In this document: piece by piece, positions 16,308 to 23,832 of the stretch
Layout of the letters: the number at the start of each line of letters is the position of its first letter
How positions within the stretch are numbered: position 1 is the stretch's first letter
From: Candidatus Gastranaerophilales bacterium
GTDB taxonomy: Bacteria; Cyanobacteriota; Vampirovibrionia; Gastranaerophilales; Gastranaerophilaceae
Assembly: GCA_944323115.1 (NCBI GenBank)
Contig: CALURG010000002.1
Span: forward strand, 62,001-126,000
DNA length: 64,000 nucleotides
Direction of reading: 5' to 3'
Position numbers and translations under genes: made by a program
Notes under the pieces: model-generated
What the model was told of the DNA's origin: nothing
The model's input: the letters and a program-made list of their open reading frames with translations, nothing else
Databases searched by the model: none

Positions 16308-19300
16308 TTAATCTTTTCCGACTTTCCATCTCAAACCGAATGAAAGTGACAGACCGTTTCTGCCGCCATTGTGTATCATAGCTTGACCGTAAGCCATTAC
16401 ATTGTCATCTTTAAATCTTTTTTGAACACCGACACCATATTGAACATAAGGTTTGATGCTCATTTCCGGAAGTCTTACATCATTTGCTCTGACATCAGAC
16501 TTGTCCATCAGATTCCAAACCATATTGACTCCAATATATGGCTGCCATCCGTTTTTTGTATTCATTATAAATTTAACGCCGGGTGCTACTTGTATCGCAT
16601 GAAGAGGGTCACTTTCTATTCTGAGTCCTGCTGCGTTTGTATAATCAAAAGTATTTACAAAAGTGTAACTTAAGAGCATTGCAGGTTGGATAATATATTT
16701 TCCTTCTTTAAATTCAAAGTTGTATCCAGTTTTGTTTCCGATACCGGCAAGAAGCATTGTGTAATTTTCATTACCGTACATGTTGGAAGAATCACCTACA
16801 CTGGCACCGACACTGACGGTTGTTGCGTTGAAGAAATTACCTTTGTATAAAGTTATCGTTGAACCGATTAAACCGCCGTTTTGGTACGTATCGACACCTT
16901 GATATCTTTGAGATGCACCGTTGTATCCTATATACCCGGTGAGAACTCTGTCCCAGCCGTGACCTATGTCTGTAAGTTTTGAATCATACCCAACCAATGT
17001 TCCGTAATTTATGTTAGAAACTTTCGGACCGTTTTTCAGAGGTATGCTTTCAAAAGATGCATATGGTTTGACCCAAAAACCTGCGTCTTCTTCTTTTATT
17101 AACAGTGGAGAGAATGTTCCGACATCTGTCGCATCAGCCGTTGGAGAAAGAGCATATTTGTTGCTGTTTTTAATTGAAATTCTTTCTAAATACGGAATAG
17201 CCATAAAGTTGTCAGAATGTTGGAATGCGTAATTGAATGTTTGAAGCTGGGTTGTATATGCACCGGCCTGAGTAACAACCGCAGGTGCGACAACTGATGG
17301 GTTGAATGCTTCATAGCTTCCTGATGGTGCACCTGCACCTTGTACAAAAGTAAACATGCCTGATTCCGGGTCATATGAAACACCGTACTTGTAAATAGGT
17401 GCAAAAAGCTGCGTTACTTGTGTATCTTTAGAAAGCTGTGACGCACCCGTGTATTGTACATATTCTTTGTATGAGTCGTGAGCAAATTGTATGTTTGTTG
17501 TTTCGGTTTTTGAGTCTGAAGTAAGGTTTATATTTGCAACATTGATTTTTCCGTCTTGTGAAACAATTGTGTTTTCAGGGAGTCTGTCCATAGATGCATT
17601 GGAAAGGTCTGCATCAAGGCTTAGATTTATATTGCCGTTTATATTAAATGATTTTGCATAGTGTTGTTCAATAGAATCGTTGACAAGACTAATACCTCCG
17701 GAGTTAATTGTGAAATCTGAGTTTTTAAATACTTCGTTGTTGCCAAGAGATATGGTGACATTTTCTGATGTTACAACTGCATTGTCTACATTGTTGTTGA
17801 ACGCAACTGTTGATTTTTCATCGTCGCCGGATATCGAAACTTTGTAGCCTGCCTGTCCGTATATTTTGTCATCAAATTGAATCAAACCTTTGTTTCTGGA
17901 GTCGAGATAAAGTGTTTTGTCTGCGTTGTCCAAATAAATCGCATTCGACTCACCGTTTGCAGTGTTTCCTTTAAATAATGATGTTCCGTTATCTGCTTTT
18001 ACTGTCAAGTCAGTGTTTGCATAAATTGCACCGCCTTTTGCTTCACCGGAGTCTGACTGAGCGGAGTTGTTGATAAATGATGTGTTTATGAATGTAATTT
18101 TTGGATCTTTTATATCACCGGTATACTCGTCGGATATAAATTCATCCATAGATTTTATAAATATGCCTTCTTTTACATATTCTTCGAGCATAGCAATGAC
18201 TTCTTCTTTTGTCATTCCGGATGGGTCGGCTGCTGCATCAATAGTCCCAAGATCTGTCGGTTTCAATATTGATGACAAATCCAGACCTTTGTTTTCTATA
18301 GCTATTGCACCTCCAAGTGCGTTGCTTGTCGTGCTGTGTACTTTGTTGTCTTTAAACACAGTATCTTTGATTGTGTATTCTATTGGATTTTCCGCTGTCT
18401 GTCCGTTTAGTGATACAATCCCGAACTCTACTTTAACATCTTGGCCTTGCCCGTAAAATGGGTTTACAATATATGTGCCGAGAACTTCTCCATCATATTC
18501 TATCGTTGCTTGCTGAAATTTGGATGACAGATCTTCAATCATTGATGCTATTTCTTCATCGACTTCCGGTCTGGATGGCATAACCGGCAGATCAGATACG
18601 GAACCGGCTATTGAACCATCGGCTATTCCTTGATTCAGCTGATTTTTATATTCTTCAAACATCACGTCTCCGTTTGGTATATCGTCGGAGAGTTCCATTT
18701 TTTGTATAACCACAATGTTGTAACCGTCTGAAACGGCATAAGAATTACCAGGATCAAATGCAGTAATACTTTCATCTTTGTAAGAGACTGACGAACCTGA
18801 AATCATACCGTTTATTTCAGTAATGTTTCCGGATGTTGGAATATAAATTGCTCCGCCGGCATTTGCTACAGTATTTCCGCTAAATGTGCTGTTTGAAATG
18901 TTAGTTGTTCCTGATGCTGTTATCGCACCACCCATGTTCTTTGCACTGTTGTTTGTGAATGTTGTGTTTGAAATGTTCAGTGTGCCTGATGACAAAATTG
19001 CCCCGCCGTTTTCTGATACAAATCCACTGATTTCTTTTACGTTGTCTATATAGAGCTCTTTTTGGGCTGTCAAAACAAGCCCTTCTGTCGAACTATCAGC
19101 AGATTTAATTGTATGTCCATTACCATTTAATGTAAAACTGTCAGAGCTTATTTCCGAATTTAATATCCAGTCGTTTATTACTTCATCTTCAGTCATGGAA
19201 TACACAATATTTCCGCTTTCCTTTATTGTATAAGGAAGTCCCAGATTTACACCTTCTTTTTTAAATAAGAGATATGCAACATTTGTATCACTTAGTCCGA

Positions 19301-21746
19301 TTATGTTATATTTGTAGTTGGTAGTCAGATATGCATCTACTGCGTCGGATATATTCAGTTCCACATTTGCGTTGATTATTTCTGAATATATATAGTCTTT
19401 GTCGTCTAGGTCTGAGGTAATATTTATATCTTCGATGTTTATTGAATTTCCATTGTTTACCAATGAATTTACATTTATGGAATCAGTATTTCCCGACGAC
19501 AAATCTGCATCAATCTTCAAGTTGAGATTGTTGTTCAGCGTCAAAGCTCCCAGTGAAATTTTTGACACAGTGTTATTCTTCAAGTCAAGGTTTACACTTC
19601 CGTTTGAACCAATATCGGTTTTTTGTGAAGTGAGTTGTCCGTTGAATTTTAAGTTGCCGCCTTCTATATTAAATTCGGTAAGATTTAAATTGTTATCATT
19701 GTTATTGAAATATATATTTGAGGATCCGTTTATTGAAATTGTACCGCTTTCAGCAGTAACAGTGTCATTGAGGATAATATCATTGTTTTTTGCATTGAGA
19801 TTTAGTGTACCATTTTTTATGTATATCCCGTCTGATTTTTTGTCATTGAATGTACCGTCAGGATTTTGAGAAGATGCGGAAAAATTTCCTTCAAAAATAA
19901 CATCTTTTTTGTCTGCGGTTATATTAACAGTACCACTATTCAAATATATAGCTCCGCCTTTTGCTTCATTTTTCCCTACCACATAGTTGTTTATAAATGA
20001 GCTGTCTGTAAGTGAAAGTCCTGAATAATAGTTACAAATAGCTCCACCTTGTGCACTATATTCAGTGGAAACAATATAATTGTTAATAAAATCACCTGTG
20101 ATGTTGCCTATATTGCTGCCATAACTATTATAAATTGCTCCACCGTTCCATCTGGAAGAGTAGTTCCCAATAAAATCACCTGTGATGTTGCCTATATTGC
20201 CGCCATCACTATTATTAATTGCTCCACCATAACTACCAGTATAGTTTCCAACAAAAACACCTGTGATGTTTTCTATGACTTCGCTATTATAAATTGCTCC
20301 GCCAAAACTACCAGTATAGTTTCCAACAAAAACACCTGTGATGCTGCCTATATCACCGTAATTATAAACTGCTCCGCCCATACTGATATCATAGTTCCCA
20401 ATAAAATTCCCTGTGATGTTGCTTATATCTCCTCTGTTAGTAATTGTGCTCGCAAAATTGGAATTAAAATTACCTGTGATGTAGTCTATTTTGCCTTTAT
20501 TATGAACTGACGAGGCAAAGCTACCATAGTTACCAATAAAATCACCTGTGATATTGCCTATGTTACCGCTATTATAAATTGCTCCGCCATCATCACCAGT
20601 ATAGTTCCCAATAAAATCCCCTGTGATGTTGCCTATATCTCTGAAATTATGAACTGCTCCGCCATCTGCACCAGCATGGTTCCCAATAAAATCGCCTGTG
20701 ATGTTGACTATATTACCATTACCGTTATTAGCAATTGCTCCGCCATCATCTGCATAGTTTCCAATAAAATCCCCTGTGATGTTGTCTATGCCAACTCTAT
20801 TATAAATTGCTCCGCCATAATCACGAGCATGGTTTCCAATAAAATCACCTGTGATATTGCCTATGTTACCGCTATTATCAATTGCTCCGCCGGATTCATC
20901 AGTATGTTTGTTAATAAAATCGTTGTTTATGTCTGCCCCCTTTAAGTCTTCTGTTATTCTCTCCGGTGCGAGTCTGGATGAGTCAACATGGTATGTTATG
21001 TCGTAGTCAAATGCCGGTGTACTTGAATCTTTCGGATTTTGGACAGTTATTTTAAACTGTTTTTGTTCATCCGACACACCTTGTGATCCGTAATAGTCAG
21101 TTTGTTTGAGTGACACTGTATAATACTTTTCAACAGCTTGTTTTACTGTTACTTCCCTGTATTGGACTCCTTCGATTCTCTCATCTTCTGCAACCTCAAG
21201 GCCTGTATTCGGGTCATAATATTTTGTCGTTTCGATTATTTCATACCTTTTTATTGTATTTGTTCCCTCTTTGTCTGTCGGTGTCAAAATATATGCGGAT
21301 TCAGGGTATATTTCACCTGTACCTTGAATCGGGTTTCCGTCCGGATCTTTGTCCATAGTACCCGGATTTATCACGTTATTTTGATGAAGTTTGTCGAGTG
21401 TAGGTACGGGTACTGTATCAGCTGACGAGGCAGCAGGAGTAAAAAACAGTGAAAAAACGAGTGCAGCTGCTATTGCAAGCTTTGACACTATTGATTTTTT
21501 CTCAGTAATTTTTTGACATGATTCAGATGACATTTTTTCAAAAGTATTCGGCATCTCAACAAACAAGCTGTTATTTTGTATAGACCTGCCCGTAATCAGT
21601 AGGTCAAGTGCTTTTATTGTGTCATTTGCTGATTTTGAATCAATATATAAGTCAAGATTTGTGATATTTAGCGGATTAGGTTTTGTGCATGAACAGAAGT
21701 ATTTTTCAGGCAAAAAACCAGTACAAATTTCTGTATTTGCTGCCAT
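16308..21746 (-). CDS. Giant Pmp-like autotransporter (type V secreted surface protein)
   Basis: 1,812 residues. The start at 21746 has GAGGT six bases upstream. An 84-residue polar leader precedes a hydrophobic segment (85-104, SIVSKLAIAAALVFSLFF) ending ASSA, so the signal peptide is N-terminally extended. A tandem array (about 270-566) follows, then more GGAI and FxxN motifs (SGNT, TNNS, FINNS), the pattern of chlamydial polymorphic membrane proteins, which fold as a beta-helix. Residues from about 1540 to the end have aromatic-alternating strands typical of an outer-membrane beta-barrel (for example MAYGQAMIHNGGRNGLSLSF), though the last residue is Asp rather than the usual Phe. The passenger is probably displayed on the outer membrane for adhesion. 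It is alone on its strand here. Confidence 0.85.
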   Translation of the reverse strand: MAANTEICTGFLPEKYFCSCTKPNPLNITNLDLYIDSKSANDTIKALDLLITGRSIQNNSLFVEMPNTFEKMSSESCQKITEKKSIVSKLAIAAALVFSLFFTPAASSADTVPVPTLDKLHQNNVINPGTMDKDPDGNPIQGTGEIYPESAYILTPTDKEGTNTIKRYEIIETTKYYDPNTGLEVAEDERIEGVQYREVTVKQAVEKYYTVSLKQTDYYGSQGVSDEQKQFKITVQNPKDSSTPAFDYDITYHVDSSRLAPERITEDLKGADINNDFINKHTDESGGAIDNSGNIGNITGDFIGNHARDYGGAIYNRVGIDNITGDFIGNYADDGGAIANNGNGNIVNITGDFIGNHAGADGGAVHNFRDIGNITGDFIGNYTGDDGGAIYNSGNIGNITGDFIGNYGSFASSVHNKGKIDYITGNFNSNFASTITNRGDISNITGNFIGNYDISMGGAVYNYGDIGSITGVFVGNYTGSFGGAIYNSEVIENITGVFVGNYTGSYGGAINNSDGGNIGNITGDFIGNYSSRWNGGAIYNSYGSNIGNITGDFINNYIVSTEYSAQGGAICNYYSGLSLTDSSFINNYVVGKNEAKGGAIYLNSGTVNITADKKDVIFEGNFSASSQNPDGTFNDKKSDGIYIKNGTLNLNAKNNDIILNDTVTAESGTISINGSSNIYFNNNDNNLNLTEFNIEGGNLKFNGQLTSQKTDIGSNGSVNLDLKNNTVSKISLGALTLNNNLNLKIDADLSSGNTDSINVNSLVNNGNSINIEDINITSDLDDKDYIYSEIINANVELNISDAVDAYLTTNYKYNIIGLSDTNVAYLLFKKEGVNLGLPYTIKESGNIVYSMTEDEVINDWILNSEISSDSFTLNGNGHTIKSADSSTEGLVLTAQKELYIDNVKEISGFVSENGGAILSSGTLNISNTTFTNNSAKNMGGAITASGTTNISNSTFSGNTVANAGGAIYIPTSGNITEINGMISGSSVSYKDESITAFDPGNSYAVSDGYNIVVIQKMELSDDIPNGDVMFEEYKNQLNQGIADGSIAGSVSDLPVMPSRPEVDEEIASMIEDLSSKFQQATIEYDGEVLGTYIVNPFYGQGQDVKVEFGIVSLNGQTAENPIEYTIKDTVFKDNKVHSTTSNALGGAIAIENKGLDLSSILKPTDLGTIDAAADPSGMTKEEVIAMLEEYVKEGIFIKSMDEFISDEYTGDIKDPKITFINTSFINNSAQSDSGEAKGGAIYANTDLTVKADNGTSLFKGNTANGESNAIYLDNADKTLYLDSRNKGLIQFDDKIYGQAGYKVSISGDDEKSTVAFNNNVDNAVVTSENVTISLGNNEVFKNSDFTINSGGISLVNDSIEQHYAKSFNINGNINLSLDADLSNASMDRLPENTIVSQDGKINVANINLTSDSKTETTNIQFAHDSYKEYVQYTGASQLSKDTQVTQLFAPIYKYGVSYDPESGMFTFVQGAGAPSGSYEAFNPSVVAPAVVTQAGAYTTQLQTFNYAFQHSDNFMAIPYLERISIKNSNKYALSPTADATDVGTFSPLLIKEEDAGFWVKPYASFESIPLKNGPKVSNINYGTLVGYDSKLTDIGHGWDRVLTGYIGYNGASQRYQGVDTYQNGGLIGSTITLYKGNFFNATTVSVGASVGDSSNMYGNENYTMLLAGIGNKTGYNFEFKEGKYIIQPAMLLSYTFVNTFDYTNAAGLRIESDPLHAIQVAPGVKFIMNTKNGWQPYIGVNMVWNLMDKSDVRANDVRLPEMSIKPYVQYGVGVQKRFKDDNVMAYGQAMIHNGGRNGLSLSFGLRWKVGKD
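20050..20935 (-). repeat. Tandem repeat array inside the autotransporter
   Basis: Eleven units of roughly 66-90 bases, each coding for a block around NITGDFIGN followed by a variable stretch and GGAIYN, plus a degenerate unit at the 5' end. Two central units lost GGAI (SSVHN, STITN). The units differ in length through short indels, a sign of slippage and point drift rather than recent exact copying. Such arrays can vary in copy number between strains. Confidence 0.88.
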
Positions 21747-21999: not shown

Positions 22000-23418
22000 A
22001 TGGCTAACAAAACTATTGCACAGGCATTGATAAAAGCACAGCAGTTTGAAGATGATGACAAATTTGAACAAGCATATGAATGTTACAAATATGCTCATGA
22101 AGCTGATAAAAACGATACGGATGTTTTGCAAAAGCTTGCAACTTGTGCACAAATGCTACAGTACAACCAAGATGCCATAAACTACTGGAATTTGTACATG
22201 CTTTTGAAGCCGGAAGATCCTATATCATATTCGCAGCTTTTGGATTTATATTTTCATGACAACAAGTATGAATATTACATGACAAGAGCCAAGCTAAAAA
22301 CCATTGAAGGAAGGCTTGCTCAAGCGGCTGATGACTACAAAAAAGCTATAAACAATACTTCTGACGAAAAAGAGTCCATAAATTCCAGGTATCTGCTTGC
22401 TCAGACTTACAAAATAATCGGTAAGAACAACCAAGCAATTGACGAATACTTAAAAATCCTTGATCATGACCACAATGAAGCGGTTTATCTCGATTTGGCC
22501 GGTCTTTATTACTCGGAAGACAAAGATGCTGCACTGCATGTTCTTTTGCAAGCTTATGAATTGTATCCGCAAAGCGAAGAAATAAAAGCTTTTTTGTGCA
22601 AAATATATCTGTCATCAGGTAATTACGAAAAGGCAGAAAGTTTTGCAACAAACGTTTTTGACAAAATAAAATCCATGCTTATGCAAGAAAAAAATGAAGA
22701 TGCGTTTGAATTGCTTAAAAATCTTTCTGACAAAGAAAAAGCTTTGCCTCAGTATTCAGCACTTATGGCTGAGTATTATTACAATAAGGGTGATTTGGAA
22801 AATACGCTAAAATACATTGATACATACGAAAAATTGGACTCTGACAGCCCTCTTGCCAGCCAAATGAGAGCACTTGTCTATGAACAAAAGAAAGATGATT
22901 TTAACTCATATTTCAACTGGGGAAAATATTACATCAAGAAAAAGAACTTAGAGCTTGCTCTCGATGAATTTTTGAATGCATACAACGAAAACACAAAGAA
23001 TGTTGATGTTATTAAAGAATTGATTAACTTATATTCCGCTTTGGATGACAAATTTGCTTGTGCAGAGTTTTGTGAAAAGCTTGTCGAAATTGAAAAAGAC
23101 GACACAGCTACTTTAAAGAGACTAATAAAATTCTATGAAGAGCAGGGTTATGAAGACAAAGTGATAGAGTATCTTACACATCTTGCGGAAAACAACACAA
23201 GAGATTATGAAACTCTATTTAAGCTTGCACAACATTCACAAAAAAACAGAAAAATCGGTGATGCTATTGATTATTACGAAAAGTACCTTAAAATTGCCCC
23301 GAATTCTGATGAGAAAGAAGAAGCAAAGCTGCAATTGTCTTTGTTGACTACAGGAGAAGGTCTTGAACAGGAAGAAGGATTTTTGGACAAGTTGATAGGT
23401 TTTTTCAGCAAAAAATAA
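22000..23418 (+). CDS. TPR-repeat protein
   Basis: 472 residues dominated by tetratricopeptide repeats from the start (ALIKAQQFEDDDKFEQAYECYKYA) to the end (KIGDAIDYYEKYLKIAPNS), about ten or more units in all, with acidic loops. The C-terminal 20 residues (GFLDKLIGFFSKK) form an amphipathic helix that might touch a membrane. There is no signal peptide, so it is likely cytoplasmic. It has its own promoter and lies between the autotransporter and tRNA-Val. Role unknown; TPR proteins in this lineage are numerous. Confidence 0.82.
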   Translation: MANKTIAQALIKAQQFEDDDKFEQAYECYKYAHEADKNDTDVLQKLATCAQMLQYNQDAINYWNLYMLLKPEDPISYSQLLDLYFHDNKYEYYMTRAKLKTIEGRLAQAADDYKKAINNTSDEKESINSRYLLAQTYKIIGKNNQAIDEYLKILDHDHNEAVYLDLAGLYYSEDKDAALHVLLQAYELYPQSEEIKAFLCKIYLSSGNYEKAESFATNVFDKIKSMLMQEKNEDAFELLKNLSDKEKALPQYSALMAEYYYNKGDLENTLKYIDTYEKLDSDSPLASQMRALVYEQKKDDFNSYFNWGKYYIKKKNLELALDEFLNAYNENTKNVDVIKELINLYSALDDKFACAEFCEKLVEIEKDDTATLKRLIKFYEEQGYEDKVIEYLTHLAENNTRDYETLFKLAQHSQKNRKIGDAIDYYEKYLKIAPNSDEKEEAKLQLSLLTTGEGLEQEEGFLDKLIGFFSKK

Positions 23419-23490: not shown

Positions 23491-23566
23491 GGGCGTTTAG
23501 CTCAGTTGGTAGAGCGCTTCCCTTACAAGGAAGATGTCGGGAGTTCGAGCCTCTCAACGCCCACCA
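23491..23566 (+). tRNA. tRNA-Val, anticodon TAC
   Basis: Acceptor arms GGGCGTT and AACGCCC pair perfectly. The D arm holds AGCTCAGTTGGTAGAGC, the anticodon loop CTTACAA (anticodon TAC, reading GTA) closes CTTCC/GGAAG, and the T arm holds GGGAG-TTCGAGC-CTCTC. Discriminator A and the CCA end are encoded. It is the only tRNA in the window. Confidence 0.96.
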
Positions 23567-23610
23567 TTATAAAAAGACTACGAAAGGTAGTCTTTTTTTG
23601 TTGAGAGGCG
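23552..23610 (+). repeat. 59-bp direct repeat, copy 1 (tRNA 3' end plus terminator)
   Basis: Covers the last 15 bases of tRNA-Val, the following terminator and a tail GTTGAGAGGCG. An almost identical copy (one mismatch) lies at 23680-23738, 128 bases downstream. Confidence 0.93.
23570..23598 (+). terminator. tRNA-Val terminator
   Basis: AAAAAGACTAC-GAAAG-GTAGTCTTTTTTT, an 11-bp stem starting four bases after the CCA end. The duplicate at about 23698-23726 has a mismatch in the stem. Confidence 0.9.
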
Positions 23611-23638
23611 TCTCACTCCCGACGGAGTTCTCATCTCA

Positions 23639-23669
23639 TTTTTAAACTGACATTTAGTCAGTTTAAAAA
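23639..23669. repeat. 13-bp perfect inverted repeat between the tRNA-end copies
   Basis: TTTTTAAACTGAC, a five-base loop ATTTA, and its exact reverse complement. It could form a strong hairpin in DNA or RNA and may act as a further terminator of low GC content. It sits in the 69-base spacer of the tRNA-end duplication. Confidence 0.85.
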
Positions 23670-23679
23670 CAAGAGCTCT

Positions 23680-23738
23680 TCTCAACGCCCACCATTATAA
23701 AAAGACTACGAAAGGTTGTCTTTTTTTGTTGAGAGGCG
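23680..23738 (+). repeat. 59-bp direct repeat, copy 2
   Basis: Second copy of the tRNA-Val 3' end plus terminator, 58 of 59 bases identical to copy 1; the difference lies in the terminator stem. No complete tRNA precedes it. The remaining 94 bases to the next gene hold no further element I can name. Confidence 0.93.
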
Positions 23739-23832
23739 ACTATAATAAATGCGATAAGCATTAAAAATCATAAAAAACCTTTTTATATCTGTTACAGAAG
23801 CCAGAGTTTTTAAACTGTTTTGTCATACAAAA

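Follow-up and report, generated by a model that had tools for sequence, protein, structure and literature searches.

A duplicated tRNA-Val 3' end in a Gastranaerophilales genome belongs to a dispersed, tRNA-linked family of hairpin units

What kind of event leaves a second copy of a tRNA 3' end and its terminator a short distance downstream of an intact tRNA gene? tRNA genes are classic docking sites of mobile DNA, and insertion at them is normally credited to integrases. The 64,000-nucleotide stretch of a Candidatus Gastranaerophilales bacterium genome analyzed here (the window, to which coordinates refer unless a contig is named) contained one tRNA gene, an intact tRNA-Val(TAC) with an encoded CCA at positions 23491 to 23566 of the forward strand (ARAGORN and Rfam). 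A repeat search of the window placed a direct repeat at 23552 to 23613 and 23680 to 23741, 62 nt long and 97% identical, with two mismatches. The duplication 128 bp downstream reported in a preliminary description of this DNA was thus confirmed; the unit given there (59 bp, one mismatch, copies 69 bp apart) is this repeat with its last three bases left off. The copies lie 128 bp from start to start, with 69 bp between them for that shorter unit.

The repeated sequence consists of the last 15 nt of tRNA-Val, the trailer, and the terminator. In the first copy, the native trailer and intrinsic terminator occupy 23567 to 23599 of the forward strand (hairpin and T run at 23571 to 23599), as recognized from sequence, repeat, and fold. 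In the second, the final 15 nt of the tRNA gene recur in direct orientation (TCTCAACGCCCACCA; 23680 to 23694, forward strand, from the repeat), followed by a trailer and terminator (23695 to 23727, forward strand) with one stem mismatch; the change from GTAGTC to GTTGTC weakens the stem, in agreement with the damaged terminator described previously. The same description had regarded the intervening 69 bp as nearly free of cargo, which did not hold: they contain the T-arm of the tRNA in inverted form (GTTGAGAGGCGTCTCACTCCCGAC; 23600 to 23623, reverse strand), the reverse complement of 23536 to 23558, and a hairpin with a 13-bp stem. The inverted arm (match score, 30) corresponds to tRNA nucleotides 8 to 31 counted from the 3' end, with the stems retained and the T-loop diverged. 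The element body that follows (23624 to 23679, forward strand) runs from the second strand of a small hairpin (ACTCC CGAC GGAGT) through a head hairpin to the right border, GAGCTCTT. The head hairpin (23639 to 23669, forward strand) is perfectly paired over 13 bp, TTTTTAAACTGAC-ATTTA-GTCAGTTTAAAAA, and includes the core (loop) motif GACATTTAGTC at 23649 to 23659 of the forward strand. Downstream of the second terminator, GTTGAGAGGCG (23728 to 23738, reverse strand) matches another inverted T-arm over its first 11 nt and gives way to native flank; it is probably the stump of a longer array. Folding of 23567 to 23760 as RNA gave a z score of -6.5 against shuffled sequences, and folding of 23600 to 23694 as single-stranded DNA gave a z score of -5.7.

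The gene upstream of tRNA-Val, which encodes a TPR-repeat protein (22000 to 23418, forward strand), adjoins tRNA-Val in 18 sister loci, and this conservation shows that the tRNA-Val locus is orthologous. Upstream of the TPR gene, the window also encodes a 1812-aa autotransporter-like protein with many GAIYN/ITGDFIGNY repeats (16308 to 21746, reverse strand). Comparison of sister genomes at this tRNA, which the preliminary description had proposed, revealed zero, one, two, or three extra tRNA-Val 3' ends and two unrelated bodies, and this variation excludes an identical 128-bp spacing in all relatives, the outcome named there as speaking against an integrative element. Units of the type found in the window (type A) were present in G010, G001, and G019 (A followed by B) besides the source genome, and units with the other body (type B) were present in G022, G015, G013, and G005, the last with three tandem copies. 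Several relatives (G004, G021, G008, G020, and G017) carried tRNA-Val without a unit, and stumps like that at 23728 to 23738 were all that was found at tRNA-Val in G016 and G007. In one further sister species (G011), a serine recombinase gene and prophage-like genes lie directly at the tRNA-Val end. The recombinase (500 aa; locus L385 on G011:C13, 12033 to 13535) ends in codons (MGVERLELPTSSL) that are the antisense of the tRNA 3' end. The preliminary description had advised looking for an integrase in strains with larger cargo, and one does occupy tRNA-Val in G011, but this insertion is separate from the hairpin units and belongs to a quite different-looking element.

The layout seen at tRNA-Val recurs at other tRNA genes. 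In the source genome (G000), where 25 tRNA genes were found in the assembly, an extra copy of the terminal 12 nt was detected within 500 nt of 15/50 tRNA ends, representing 13 of the 25 genes, and 11 of these 15 ends also had an inverted adjacent arm between the copies. In a control genome of the same order that lacks the hairpin pattern, extra direct copies were found at 3/63 tRNA ends, and in a control genome of another order at 0/60, with no inverted arm in either (the best-scoring 30 tRNA loci were read in each control). The tRNA scan of these three genomes was independent of the motif. Inverted arms scoring at least 24 were found at 32 of 158 loci and at none of the 158 when a different tRNA was substituted. 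The recurring order is a tRNA end, 25 to 35 nt of flank, an inverted D- or T-arm, a hairpin body, a direct copy of the last 12 to 19 nt of the tRNA, and a copy of the flank, or P Q B rc(QP) body (P) Q B, where P is the arm, Q the tRNA end, and B the flank. This order is found at both the 5' and the 3' ends of tRNA genes, the intact gene is retained, and units can stand in tandem arrays. Examples include a unit at the 5' end of tRNA-Asp (GTAGCTCAGTTTGGTT, body, GAGCTACGATCCC) and repeated units at the 5' end of tRNA-Arg(CCG); some A-family copies at 5' ends have the direct tRNA piece only, and an inverted arm is not clear in them.

The bodies of these units differ, comprising the GACATTTAGTC/CCTCTC family, the type B family, and others. 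Many further tRNA genes, in the source genome and in related genomes, have the GACATTTAGTC loop motif beside them. The TGACATTTAGTCA core occurred in all 23 genomes of the genus at 8 to 41 copies per genome (10 in the source genome), compared with 0 to 1 for the reversed control. Aligned copies yielded the consensus CCTCTC-nnn-AAAAC-n-TGAC-ATTTA-GTCA-n-CTTTT-nnn-TCGGCAGAGT with a fixed C.C mismatch, and the Val unit of the window is a more divergent member ending in GAGCTCTT. A broader superfamily pattern, CCTCTC-hairpin-CGGCAGAGT, which takes in most related copies and not the divergent Val unit of the window, was found in 165 of the 170 genomes sampled from one family (f1, count from the table), most likely Gastranaerophilaceae. 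CCTCTC-N-CGGCAGAGT was found in few genomes of neighboring families and was almost absent elsewhere; the 12 matches outside the order all lacked an internal hairpin. The head sequence varies freely while pairing is kept: one pair position was paired in 58 of 59 distinct copies, using all four pair types (19.5 expected by shuffling). The stems of 99 distinct heads contained 988 Watson-Crick pairs and 4 G.U pairs, and this scarcity of G.U suggests that the constraint on head pairing probably acts at the level of DNA. A second dispersed hairpin family (type B), GTACGGCTC...TCGCCTAC, is likewise followed by tRNA ends, and a genome of the genus can have as many as 16 exact-pattern copies (examples at L038 in G005:C18, L036 in G037:C24, and G000:C40:20242).

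In loci fetched by motif alone, 56 of 90 internal cores lay within 300 bp of a tRNA gene, compared with 6.8 when positions were drawn at random from these loci. In G045, for which all exact-pattern sites were fetched, about half adjoin a tRNA and are followed by the end of that tRNA. Where a tRNA was near, it stood on the left of the core, as read in the core orientation, in 127 of 138 cases, and these 127 same-facing A-core units were divided between 5' ends (82) and 3' ends (45). The sequence after the core matched the end of its own tRNA in 81 of 116 cases and that of a different tRNA in 2 of 116, the match mostly beginning 11 to 15 nt from the tRNA end. These A-family loci were selected by motif. 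The related genomes are nearly all drafts, one per species, and many copies fall at contig ends (65 of 155 within 300 nt of a locus end), so that copy counts are probably too low. The existence of a dispersed, tRNA-linked hairpin family, and membership in it, are well supported.

Copies outside tRNA genes gave a less uniform picture. In one case, a core occupies the loop of a palindrome (GGATTGCTTC-TTC-[45-nt core]-GCTCGCAATGAC, L128), and another genome has the core-free form GGATTGCTTCGCATTCGCTCGCAATGAC (L179 and L390); this clean loop insertion has no obvious target duplication. As a class, the non-tRNA copies had an arm complementarity of 6.5, not clearly higher than the 6.0 of mismatched arms, and targeting of hairpin loops outside tRNA genes may be inferred from single examples. 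Simple hairpins such as GAAAATCAAAGATTTTC were also observed in the loops of other palindromes (L137, L142, and L172), as if small hairpins were generally inserted there. Some dispersed copies lie inside larger repeats of about 120 to 260 bp; one such repeat, with the CCTCTC hairpin nested inside, has many copies in G018 and other genomes (G000:C26:28394, L247). No orthologous empty site was obtained for the one non-tRNA copy for which it was sought, whose site is inside a larger repeat.

The layout at tRNA genes, as written out above, fits a template switch during replication whose return point lies upstream. Template-switch mutations arising in replication produce an inverted copy of a nearby segment, together with a direct duplication if the return point is upstream; the units described here differ in being recurrent, in occurring at the tRNA genes of one lineage, and in having recurring hairpin bodies at the switch. 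Judged from sequence comparisons, the units are probably the product of a lineage-specific, nonautonomous hairpin element whose insertion at tRNA genes would be coupled with template switching. The body would insert into DNA hairpin loops (tRNA D- and T-loops, terminators, and other palindromes), and at tRNA genes its insertion would be accompanied by replication template switching or fold-back copying. The switch would write the tRNA arm once in inverted form and the tRNA end once in direct form, so that a functional tRNA survives, and arrays could then lengthen or shorten via slippage or recombination between direct repeats. Both the mobility of the element and template switching as the copying mechanism are what we infer from these patterns. 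A further proposal, offered tentatively, is that a lineage-specific process writes small cassettes at either tRNA end, each combining an inverted arm of the tRNA with a mobile DNA hairpin and a newly made tRNA end, which may make tRNA genes growing platforms that need no integrase.

Dispersed small extragenic hairpins with a fixed C.C mismatch, constant foot sequences, and almost no G.U pairs would suit IS200/IS605- or RAYT-type (REP/BIME-like) hairpins mobilized by a Y1 transposase in trans. We know of no Y1 transposase that duplicates tRNA ends or makes locus-matched inverted arms, and Y1_Tnp was not found in the source genome or in most of the copy-rich genomes of the genus, which are drafts. 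A Y1 transposase was rejected as the mover on this distribution, and the reading as a whole is unlikely. More generally, nothing resembling a parental transposase recurred near the cores. Carriage by phage was likewise rejected: ACNTGACATTTAGTCANC had no matches in IMG/VR, and among 80 superfamily-pattern matches read there, five had an inner stem of 5 to 6 bp. One of these five, on a viral contig (L292, 3447, forward strand; CCTCTCAAAAAACGTGCCATTCAAGGCACCTTTTTCTCGGCAGAGT), is a possible family member.

The units might instead be regulatory structures kept by selection, in which pairing of the inverted arm with the tRNA sequence, at the level of either DNA or transcript, would tune tRNA expression or maturation. 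Inverted arms of up to 25 nt beside tRNA genes would compete with tRNA folding, and the Val unit has kept its stems while its T-loop has diverged. Against this, sister species differ at one locus in the presence, number, and body type of their units, the inverted arm of the Val unit is located past the terminator, and the heads, nearly devoid of G.U pairs, are unlike conserved RNA. Only tRNAs reached the Rfam cutoffs, and weak matches were unconvincing. There is little probability in a selected regulatory role.

The interpretation advanced in the preliminary description, an att scar or minimal integrative element (here taken to be one of a tyrosine or serine integrase that has lost its cargo, with the two tRNA-end copies as attL and attR), was right in assigning the duplication to an inserted element, and the footprint usual for att sites is a directly repeated tRNA 3' end; the recombinase-bearing prophage at tRNA-Val in G011 also favors it. 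The units nevertheless do not resemble an integrase att scar. The same layout stands at tRNA 5' ends in 82 of the 127 A-core units, identity spans the whole trailer and so extends beyond an att core, and an inverted arm of 16 to 25 nt matched to each tRNA is foreign to att sites. One genome would need a separate element for each of at least 13 tRNA genes, no recombinase recurred beside the cores (their neighbors are mixed chromosomal genes), and no integrase was recognized by eye among the window ORFs next to tRNA-Val. An integrase scar was rejected on the grounds of the 5'-end units, the inverted arms, and the absence of a linked integrase, and it is an improbable origin.

RNA-mediated (SINE- or retron-like) insertion primed by tRNA would accommodate the association with tRNA ends and the structured bodies, but both 5' and 3' ends are used, the scarcity of G.U points to DNA, and RVT_1 was found neither in the source genome nor in 20 of the 23 genomes of the genus; a reverse transcriptase was rejected as the mover on that distribution, and this route is very improbable. 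Simple tandem duplication, the alternative raised earlier, arising here by slippage at the terminator and involving no element, would explain tandem direct repeats and near-identical units in arrays, but it accounts for neither the inverted arm nor the recurrence of hairpin bodies at many different tRNAs, extra tRNA ends are rare in control genomes, and as the whole story it has almost no chance of being correct.

The hairpin units share features with several known systems. REP sequences have a fixed stem mismatch, as do the hairpins here. REP/BIME elements and RAYT (PMC2817692) offer a further likeness in short, dispersed, extragenic hairpins that are nonautonomous and present in many copies. 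They differ from the units described here, which have locus-matched inverted and direct copies of tRNA ends, strongly prefer tRNA genes, and mostly occur in genomes without Y1_Tnp. Prokaryotic MITEs (PMC10969869) are likewise small, nonautonomous, inverted-repeat elements of one lineage. In the present units, by contrast, no shared terminal inverted repeats or short target duplication was found, nor a parental transposase recurring near the cores, and the arms are copies of the target tRNA that differ by locus. Rickettsia palindromic elements insert inside genes and leave them working, whereas here the gene is intact beside a duplicated end. Palindromic insertion within one lineage is the point of similarity to those elements (named in PMC2694212). 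Islands and prophages integrated at tRNA genes also duplicate the tRNA 3' end and keep the whole tRNA, and the present units differ from them in having no integrase or cargo, in using both tRNA ends, and in having an inverted arm. Integron cassettes, with their attC sites, are short units in arrays with folded-hairpin sites, a likeness of layout judged by eye; here there is no cassette gene, and the repeat is a tRNA end. A description of such a tRNA-end-copying pattern was not found in the open-access literature on this lineage, palindromic elements, MITEs, or tRNA duplications, which is weak evidence of novelty.

In a whole bacterial family, tRNA ends are duplicated on both sides of tRNA genes with no visible integrase, and the inverted-copy signature points to template switching. 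Annotators could take these repeats for att sites. They stand at contig ends in many drafts, and in this lineage they probably cause assemblies to break and tRNA genes to be missed. They also provide a natural, countable system for studying how small hairpins become dispersed and why essential genes withstand it. If tRNA genes do serve as platforms for cassettes of this kind, the units would represent a new class of hairpin-loop-targeted, template-switching mobile element.
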